The position numbers and the translations under genes were made by a program. Shown here piece after piece: positions 7,054-14,487 of a stretch of 41,787 bases of DNA (position 1 is its first letter; each line of letters begins with the position of its first letter). The notes under the pieces are model-generated. The model had not been told where the DNA came from. It worked only from the letters and a program-made list of their open reading frames with translations, and made no database searches. The stretch spans positions 1 to 41,787 of IMG/VR virus record IMGVR_UViG_3300048921_000095, one strand, 5' to 3'. Origin of the DNA: a virus.

Positions 7054-7096
7054 TTACCGTTGAGGTAATCATTAACCGTATATGGGTTGAAGTCAA
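7054..7096 (-). promoter_or_regulatory. leftward early promoter with operator
   Basis: On the minus strand a -35 TTGACT (7096-7091), a 17-bp spacer and a -10-like AATGAT (7073-7068) lead into the leftward operon. A perfect operator TTACC-N5-GGTAA at 7054-7068 covers the expected start point. The spacer contains an AACC-N6-GGTT-like element (7074-7088) centred 20 bp from the operator. A second TTACC half site lies at 7043-7047. Confidence 0.7.
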
Positions 7097-7183: not shown

Positions 7184-7771
7184 TTAGTTGCGTGGTGATA
7201 ATTCATTCTGAGAAATGGCAAATTTAATGAAGCTTTCGATCCTGTTTTTCTCTTCTTCAGGTAACGATGCATATTTCTGCCTGTCGTACCGGATGACCGA
7301 CGGGTCTGCCGGATGCAGCAGCAGCTCATATCCCTGGCGGCCAAAGGCGCGGGCTATCGCCTCGAGAGTGGAGATCGACACGCTGGCCTCTTTGTTGATG
7401 ACCCGGCCTACAGTGGCCTGGCTGACTCCGCTGGCGCGCGATACCTTGCCCTGAGAAGAAAGCTCGCGGCTCTCCTGCATCCAGCGGGTGAGGTTTACGG
7501 ATGCTATCTCGCCGACGTTCTGTGCGCCGTCATGCTGATAGGAGAGGTCTTTCGTGTCGCTGTCGAGATCCATCCAGAAGCGGGGTTTGCGTCCTGCCTC
7601 TTCAATCTTCCTCGCGGACTGGTCACCAATAATCTTTTTGCCCAGCGCCCAGCGGTTCACCAGGTTTGCCTGTGTTCCCATTCTTTCGGCAAGCCTCGTC
7701 TGAACACCGTTAAATTCGCTGTTGATCAGGTTCACCAGGTTTTCGCGGCGCACGTCATAGATGCTTTTCAT
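7184..7771 (-). CDS. immunity repressor with two HTH segments
   Basis: This 195-aa protein is divergent from the Cro-like gene, as expected for the lysogeny repressor. Residues about 9-60 resemble a phage-repressor HTH (TRLAERMGTQANLVNRWALG; then RKIEEAGRKPRFWMD). Residues about 91-151 form a second XRE-type HTH (GKVSRASGVSQATVGRVINK and SISTLEAIARAFG). The 45-residue tail is helical. I see no LexA/S24 peptidase domain: the usual Ala-Gly cleavage region, Ser and Lys motifs and about 100 residues are missing. RecA-driven self-cleavage therefore seems unlikely. The start is ATG 7771. Operators in the 7825-7887 gap suggest autoregulation. Confidence 0.8.
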   Translation of the reverse strand: MKSIYDVRRENLVNLINSEFNGVQTRLAERMGTQANLVNRWALGKKIIGDQSARKIEEAGRKPRFWMDLDSDTKDLSYQHDGAQNVGEIASVNLTRWMQESRELSSQGKVSRASGVSQATVGRVINKEASVSISTLEAIARAFGRQGYELLLHPADPSVIRYDRQKYASLPEEEKNRIESFIKFAISQNELSPRN

Positions 7772-13330: not shown

Positions 13331-13599
13331 TGGACAGCAGAAAGCAGTTTGAGGCAGAGATTAACAAAAAGTTTGGCGACCTTATCGACCAGCGTATTTG
13401 CAAAAACAGTGACGGGGATTATATGGCCTGGGATATGCAGGTCGCATGGTGGGCATGGCAGGCATCGCGTTCAGCTATTGAGATTGAATTACCTGTCGAT
13501 AAGCCTCTGGTTGATAACTATGCCTGTGGATTCAATGAAGCAATCACTGGCGTAGCAGGCGTAATCCGCGCCGCAGGTCTGAAAGTGAAGGGTGATTGA
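13330..13599 (+). CDS. 89-aa hypothetical protein
   Basis: The start is ATG 13330, sharing the last base of the preceding stop; 31 upstream in-frame codons are discarded. MDSRKQFEAEINKKFGDLID is followed by a tryptophan-rich segment (MQVAWWAWQASRSAIEIELP), a pattern shared with many short phage proteins in which a WxxWQAS helix precedes a variable tail. Function unknown. A one-base-spaced start for the next gene follows. Confidence 0.6.
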   Translation: MDSRKQFEAEINKKFGDLIDQRICKNSDGDYMAWDMQVAWWAWQASRSAIEIELPVDKPLVDNYACGFNEAITGVAGVIRAAGLKVKGD

Positions 13600-13600
13600 G

Positions 13601-13939
13601 ATGGCAAAGACTAGCGCAGAGCGCAAGGCAGCACAGCGCGCCCGCCAGGCTGAAGCCGGTGAGCGCAAATTCGAGCTGGTGCTGGATGCCCAGGAAATGG
13701 AGATGCTGGCGCAGAATTGCGCCGCCCGCCGACCGGGGAAAGAGCCTTACGAGATGGGTGAGTATATCGCTCTGCTGATTCGTCAGGACAACGCCCGCGT
13801 CTCCGGCCTGATTAAGTCCATCGGTGCCCGGCAGTGCGGGAAGTGCGGCGATCAGCTGCCGGTGAAGTCCTGCCCGTGCCAGGGTGATTCGAAGTGCTGG
13901 GCTACGCGCGGTTGGCATGAGACTAAACTATCGGTGTGA
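13601..13939 (+). CDS. basic protein with C-terminal zinc ribbon
   Basis: The 112-aa protein begins MAKTSAERKAAQRARQAEAG, a basic helix common in phage DNA-binding proteins. It continues with a ribbon-helix-helix-like segment (RKFELVLDAQEMEMLAQNCA) and ends in a Cys cluster (CGKCGDQLPVKSCPC, then CWATRGWH). The combination suggests a small DNA-binding regulator. The AERxAAxRxRxxxxG start followed by a strand-helix is a familiar but uncharacterised phage family. Confidence 0.65.
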   Translation: MAKTSAERKAAQRARQAEAGERKFELVLDAQEMEMLAQNCAARRPGKEPYEMGEYIALLIRQDNARVSGLIKSIGARQCGKCGDQLPVKSCPCQGDSKCWATRGWHETKLSV

Positions 13940-13945
13940 GGAAAT

Positions 13946-14143
13946 ATGTCTATAAACTGGTTTGTTGTGTGCGAAAAGTGCAAGGTTTTTAAGGATGTGG
14001 CTCAGGGCTACGAAGGGCAGGTAAGACCGACTGAGAGAGGTGAGTTGATTATCAGTTTTCTATATCAGCATGAAGGTCATAATTTGAAGTTCGTGAGTGA
14101 GTATGCTGAAGAAGTCCTTGAAGGGTGCAAAGAAGAGTTGTGA
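13946..14143 (+). CDS. 65-aa zinc-finger-like protein, last gene of the early right unit
   Basis: MSINWFVVCEKCKVFKDVAQ starts behind GAGGAAAT. A CEKC pair and a later HEGH pair (LYQHEGHNLKFVSEYAEEV) could bind zinc. It is the last gene before the SOS-controlled region: a GTGAC-CT-GTCAC palindrome overlaps its stop and a terminator-like hairpin follows 20 bp on. Function unknown. Confidence 0.6.
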   Translation: MSINWFVVCEKCKVFKDVAQGYEGQVRPTERGELIISFLYQHEGHNLKFVSEYAEEVLEGCKEEL

Positions 14144-14153
14144 CCTGTCACAG

Positions 14154-14215
14154 TTGCGAACTATCCCCGCTTAATTATACTGTATATGCAAACAGTATTA
14201 TGGCGGGGATTTTTT
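14154..14215 (+). promoter_or_regulatory. LexA-controlled promoter inside a terminator-like hairpin
   Basis: A perfect LexA box CTGT-ATATGCAA-ACAG (14180-14195; with flanks TACTG...CAGTA, 14178-14197) overlaps the -10 TATACT (14176-14181), which lies 16 bp from TTGCGA (14154-14159). The box is flanked by ATCCCCGC (14163-14170) and GCGGGGAT (14203-14210), an 8-bp inverted repeat followed by T residues to 14215. The right arm contains the ribosome site of the next gene. A transcript from this promoter (start near 14188) lacks the left arm, while read-through RNA contains both. Confidence 0.8.
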
Positions 14216-14464
14216 ATGGGCGTCAAAGACAGCAACTTCCAGATGGTGCGCCACGGCGAGCCGCTCATCATCTTCAAACCAGGCGGGATCGTATTCTTCC
14301 AGCGCGCCAGAGAGCATGGCGGAAAATGGTGGCTTGGCTACACACATCACGAAGGCTTCGAGTTCATCCTCGACCAGCCAGTTTCCATCCATGAGGGCAT
14401 GGTTTTCCTCGTCAACCGAGACAGTGTCCCGCTGCCATCGCCTGACGATTTCCGCCTGGAGTAA
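14216..14464 (+). CDS. SOS-induced 82-aa protein, candidate antirepressor
   Basis: The start is ATG 14216, eight bases after the GGCGGGG ribosome site; an ATG at 14186 lies within the LexA box and is rejected. The protein MGVKDSNFQMVRHGEPLIIF ... GGKWWLGYTHHEGFEFILDQ is predicted beta-rich, soluble and without Cys. I recognise no family. A perfect LexA box directs it, and the resident repressor appears unable to self-cleave. It is therefore a prime candidate for a Tum-like antirepressor (compare phage 186) or another SOS-dependent lytic switch; that is inference from context. It sits alone between the early block and terminase. Confidence 0.75.
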   Translation: MGVKDSNFQMVRHGEPLIIFKPGGIVFFQRAREHGGKWWLGYTHHEGFEFILDQPVSIHEGMVFLVNRDSVPLPSPDDFRLE

Positions 14465-14487
14465 TGATATAGTTACCTGCATGGTAA
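14465..14487 (+). promoter_or_regulatory. terminase promoter (extended -10) with operator
   Basis: TGATATAGT (14465-14473) reads as an extended -10. The perfect operator TTACC-N5-GGTAA (14473-14487) begins at its last base, covering the start site. This places the late terminase genes under the same operator as the early promoters. Confidence 0.65.

Follow-up and report, generated by a model that had tools for sequence, protein, structure and literature searches.

In IS50/Tn5 and IS10/Tn10, read-through RNA from outside promoters folds in such a way that the ribosome-binding site of the transposase is hidden. The IS50 promoter P1 is in addition modestly repressed by LexA, and Tn5 joins LexA with transposase control, with the LexA site being weak and Dam providing the stronger control (PMC4265352). 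In bacteriophage T4, genes e, soc, 49, and I-TevI have long early transcripts in which a hairpin covers the Shine-Dalgarno (SD) sequence or AUG, while a promoter between the arms gives rise to RNA without the 5' arm, which is translated; for gene e, the effect is ∼100-fold (PMC3014915). In tisB/istR-1 of E. coli, a gene under LexA control is subject to a further lock at the RNA level, its ribosome-binding site being sequestered (PMC7708055).

The locus described here was found in a viral stretch of 41,787 nt (the window; coordinates are window positions unless another locus is named). On its plus strand, the last conserved early gene (13592 to 13939) was assigned to phrog_536, "transcriptional regulator" (PHROGs E 1.5e-49), and encodes a protein with a zinc-ribbon-like C-terminus. 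It is followed on the same strand by a 65-aa open reading frame (ORF) with no family match (13946 to 14143), the last gene before the hairpin, and by an 82-aa SOS gene of phrog_2100 (14216 to 14464; PHROGs E 4.6e-22 for residues 1 to 72). The latter starts at ATG 14216, a longer ORF from ATG 14186 beginning ahead of the predicted SOS transcription start. Between these two genes, the plus-strand arms ATCCCCGC (14163 to 14170) and GCGGGGAT (14203 to 14210) are perfect reverse complements of 8 bp, and a U14171-G14202 wobble lengthens the stem to 9 bp (14163 to 14171 with 14202 to 14210). Enclosed by this stem is a LexA box, CTGTATATGCAAACAG (14180 to 14195), which has two perfect half-sites, agrees with the extended consensus at 17 of 20 positions, and is the sole CTGT-N8-ACAG of the window (0.45 expected). 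The right arm is the SD region of the 82-aa gene, with GGGGA ∼11 nt 5' of the ATG, and a T6 run (14210 to 14215, plus strand) leads up to the start codon. The preliminary description of an 8-bp hairpin around a LexA box with the SD in the right arm was thus confirmed by the perfect arms and the single box. Its placement of the box in the hairpin loop held in that the box is enclosed by the stem, but the loop is not open: in the RNA the half-sites pair together, giving a two-storey predicted fold with an inner stem of 14177 to 14183 with 14192 to 14198.

The predicted minimum free energy was -24.4 kcal/mol for positions 14154 to 14220 (z = -4.9) and -23.1 kcal/mol for the 48 nt from 14163 to 14210 (z = -5.3), and in neither case was any of 200 shuffles as good. 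An equally good stem arose in 0.7% of cases when the left 24 nt were shuffled. Comparison with the covariance models of known RNA families in Rfam gave no match up to E = 1. The predicted SOS promoter, also on the plus strand, comprises a weak -35 (TTGCGA, 14154 to 14159), a 16-nt spacer, and a -10-like TATACT (14176 to 14181) overlapping the LexA box, with a 9/12 match overall. The LexA box overlaps this predicted promoter just 5' of the start codon, as is characteristic of a LexA-regulated gene, and transcription would start near 14188, within the box. The left arm sits in the spacer between -35 and -10, and therefore LexA-driven RNA should be devoid of it. The cost of opening the SD was predicted to be 15.0 kcal/mol in read-through RNA versus 3.5 kcal/mol in SOS RNA starting at ∼14188, a wider gap than in any other leader of the comparison. 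Both features of a lock of the T4 gene e type were thus predicted, namely, a hairpin covering the SD on the long RNA and an inner promoter whose RNA would lack the 5' arm. The stop codon of the 65-aa ORF lies 20 nt 5' of the left arm, and therefore a ribosome terminating there should leave the hairpin free. On the minus strand, a promoter-like match, TTGACG-18-CATAAT (10/12; 14226 to 14197), faces left across the LexA box. Antisense RNA across the hairpin is conceivable from this match, although such matches are expected by chance.

The favored reading, judged likely and resting on sequence analysis, is that the hairpin serves as a translational lock against early read-through that would open solely on SOS RNA. 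The early operon, from the replication genes through phrog_536, would continue into the SOS gene, as no terminator separates the two. Read-through RNA with both arms would fold into two storeys, the outer stem hiding the SD and the LexA palindrome forming the inner one, and during ordinary early expression the SOS gene would be left untranslated. Upon LexA cleavage, RNA would begin within the box, at ∼14188, so that the left arm would remain promoter spacer DNA and the SD would be exposed. LexA repression and the hairpin would together confine the product to SOS. Inferred in this account are the point at which transcription starts, the binding of LexA, the occurrence of read-through, and how strongly translation is blocked.

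Comparison of sequences revealed not only the hairpin and the LexA-promoter geometry but also their recurrence, covariation, and absence behind an insulating terminator. In epsilon15-like (Uetakevirus) phages, the site is flanked by the phrog_536 gene on one side and the terminase on the other. The phrog_536 gene was upstream of it in all at-site relatives and was used as the anchor for locating it. The commonest occupant was a UmuD'-like protein (phrog_3469), present at many loci including phages Kp4865-1 and BUCT554. Annotated as UmuD-like, this protein begins exactly at the UmuD' N-terminus (GFPSPA..), i.e., at the post-cleavage start, and therefore should have no need for RecA-stimulated processing. 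The other occupants were phrog_2100 (the window, L136, and L241/L257), a third LexA-box family (MRTFSTAGYKFY...; L135 and L149, ∼2387 to 2660) in which the hairpin is followed by a T run and then the ATG, like in the window, and a 63-aa family with a GTG start (L130 and others). In all at-site classes except the 63-aa class and L131, the left arm in the spacer pairs with the SD, the arms being ATCCCCGC/GCGGGGAT in the window, ATTTCATTG/CGGTGAAAT in L241 and L257, CCTCACAT/ATGTGAGG in the UmuD'-like class, GCCCTCT/AGAGGGC in L268, and AGCCC/GGGCT in L149, with a stem also in L136. For all nine terminator-free representatives at the site, stem p values were 0.002 to 0.034 against shuffled left arms, a null that allows for the G-rich SD right arm, the single values being modest.

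These arms also bear on whether the inverted repeat could act as an operator in the DNA, with a second regulator binding the arms that flank LexA. The arms are symmetric around the promoter, and repeats of this kind are frequent in phage promoters, but at one and the same site they are completely different between phages, their spacing shifts by 1 to 2 nt, the right arm always coincides with the SD, and wobbles are frequent among the pairs. An operator role therefore appeared very improbable.

The family phrog_2100 ranges over P22-like phages, SSU5-type phage-plasmids, P2-like phages, where it adjoins a gene of the DinI family, and further phages of enterobacteria. A LexA box was located 31 to 37 nt before the start in nearly all stand-alone copies, a position kept across P22-like, SSU5-like, and other phages, and because of this, SOS control is by prediction the rule for the family. 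The hairpin is not a trait of this family, because the phrog_2100 leaders elsewhere mostly lacked an SD hairpin: in 26 non-redundant leaders, stem p values were spread roughly evenly from 0.016 to 0.97. By these comparisons, the hairpin is a trait of genomic position, not of gene family. Three leaders of P2-like phrog_2100 copies with a LexA box and a T run (L025, L033, and L048) looked similar by eye and were rejected, their stems being no better than those of shuffles. Two phrog_2100 copies in Enterobacteriaceae genomes, off the phrog_536 site (L310 and L320), had a stem over the SD (p = 0.008 and 0.042) and are possible independent cases. As for the 82-aa protein of the window, no close homologues turned up when viral and genome contigs were scanned with the single sequence, and its best identity was <60% in other collections and 53% at most in a family-wide scan of 392 genomes. 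Its AlphaFold model was fair (pLDDT 78) with no significant structural match in the PDB, and no sequence match to solved structures and no Pfam or NCBIfam family were found.

Covariation was assessed in 42 UmuD'-like leaders, many of which share ancestry, so that cell counts overstate independent events. In this set, 96.3% of the outer-stem cells pair, whereas slid registers pair at ≤67%. Two-sided changes were observed in 5/9 pairs, versus 1.3 expected from shuffles, with 0/500 shuffles as high, and further pair types numbered 16, versus 11.3 in shuffles. RNAalifold recovered the identical structure unprompted. Individual leaders provided clear examples: L260 has two double compensations, U-A to C-G and A-U to G-C, and in L237 a pair goes from C-G through U-G to U-A. 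In L268, the whole stem is replaced; it seems unpaired in the MAFFT alignment through a column shift but does pair once the register is moved by one position. An excess of wobble over A-C (12 events versus 2) was considered as evidence for the strand and was discarded, the composition of the left arm already predicting a strong excess.

The upstream context was examined with terminators called by a simple pattern. Genes at the site that bear the hairpin follow a co-directional gene by 30 to 40 nt, and where another gene intervenes, as in the window, they lie ∼240 nt from phrog_536; no terminator matching the simple pattern was found between them and the preceding gene. In the 63-aa class (8/8 loci), the gene is placed ∼150 nt downstream, separated by an intrinsic terminator, and is without the hairpin. 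Similarly, in L192, which is preceded by a terminator, the SD arm has been kept but the left arm is gone. UmuD'-like genes behind other upstream genes (L184 and L188), where the short gap yielded no terminator, keep the stem. In L175, a 1.9-kb insertion separates the left arm from the remaining hairpin. This insertion (∼55 to 1960) lies in the -10 region of the UmuD'-like SOS promoter, carries an opposite-strand ORF of 495 aa, and is possibly a group II intron. The association has exceptions. At the site, L131 is without both a clear terminator and a spacer stem. Elsewhere, three phrog_2100 genes (L004, L106, and L010) begin 21 to 22 nt behind a co-directional gene and lack a terminator as well as a stem joining spacer and SD. 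Exposed genes of this kind can thus go without the stem, so that selection for a lock does not invariably follow from read-through.

Alternatively, the main role of the hairpin could be to end the early operon as an intrinsic terminator, with the SOS promoter in its loop by chance and the SD overlap a by-product. A T6 run directly follows the stem in the window, where it may make a weak intrinsic terminator, T6 to T7 runs occur in L135/L149, and at the same site a canonical terminator was present in 21/41 phages without an SOS gene there (L125, L126, L232, L242, and others). Against this, the stem is kept without a T run in the large UmuD'-like group, L136, and L241, so that the SD pairing, not the U tract, is conserved; moreover, the 32-nt interrupted loop of the window hairpin is unusual for a terminator, and the hairpin was missing from the output of the standard scan. 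This alternative was accordingly considered unlikely, although termination is possible in the window and L135/L149 as a nonconserved element. The interpretation in the preliminary description, in which read-through RNA would both tend to terminate and hide the SD, therefore stood in part: the hiding and freeing of the SD appear well supported by recurrence, compensatory changes, and absence behind a terminator, but the T run behind the proposed tendency to terminate did not extend to the large UmuD'-like group.

It might also be that a G-rich SD met a C-rich spacer by chance in one phage. The exact arms are private to the window, as a scan of viral contigs for the exact arm pattern gave just five matches, all unrelated, and the stem is mostly missing from phrog_2100 leaders elsewhere. 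This explanation is disfavored, and scarcely credible, since the arrangement recurs at the site with other sequences and genes, shows covariation, and is lost where a terminator lies upstream. Recurrence with different sequences and genes therefore points to real selection for the design. We consider it fairly probable that temperate phages repeatedly nested a LexA promoter in an SD-hiding hairpin, with the operator as both repressor site and inner stem and the position after the early operon as a slot for locked SOS genes (UmuD'-like, phrog_2100, and others). The design is proposed for a group of temperate phages of gut bacteria, in which SOS-only genes would carry it.

Two sets of palindromes were observed around the locus. 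The palindrome GTGACCTGTCAC (14140 to 14151), whose position beside phrog_536 is conserved in relatives, is one of the GTGACNTGTCAC-type palindromes found at 1714, 14140, 16610, and 31050; the type lies directly 3' of phrog_536 in most relatives and is a possible operator of a regulator. The second, TTACC-N5-GGTAA, occurs in eight exact copies (0.01 expected), at 7054, 7116, 7825, 8208, 10324, 14473, 17824, and 35689. Four surround a repressor-like gene (7184 to 7771), and the rest are apparently intergenic, including the repressor-operator-like TTACCTGCATGGTAA (14473 to 14487) between the SOS gene and, just after it, the terminase. They look like dispersed repressor operators, to which the stoperators of mycobacteriophage L5 are comparable.

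If true, the proposed lock explains how damage-response genes can be parked directly behind early genes without leaky synthesis, among them one for an already-processed UmuD'-like protein, able perhaps to raise mutation. It would constitute a natural damage sensor with two layers. Spacer-to-SD complementarity around a LexA box provides a comparative signature for finding other locked SOS genes, and phrog_2100 emerges as a widespread SOS-box protein worth attention.

Among known systems, the commonest gene at the site resembles phage P1 HumD and host UmuD' in starting at the UmuD' N-terminus. It differs from HumD in scoring 39.4 with the HumD model, against an NCBIfam cutoff of 120, and the window differs from the HumD/UmuD' relatives in carrying phrog_2100 at the site. 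For LexA-controlled antirepressors of the Gifsy type, we know of no read-through hairpin. They share with the present genes a LexA box, residence in temperate phages, and often small products (PMC3121763). The tisB lock works directly on the SOS transcript, by way of structure, processing, a standby site, and antisense RNA, and does not single out read-through RNA. Unlike in IS50, the genes here are phage SOS genes with near-consensus LexA boxes. The closest parallel is T4 gene e, where the lock likewise acts on read-through RNA and an inner promoter omits the 5' arm. The preliminary description had suggested that such control was undescribed for a phage gene, which overstated the novelty, as T4 genes e, soc, 49, and I-TevI share the read-through-only SD hairpin (PMC3014915). 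In T4, however, the inner promoters are late ones that set timing in a lytic phage, whereas in the window the inner promoter is predicted to be LexA controlled, with DNA damage as the trigger and the operator as inner stem. What looks new is that the predicted lock is tied to LexA and that its inner stem is the operator palindrome.
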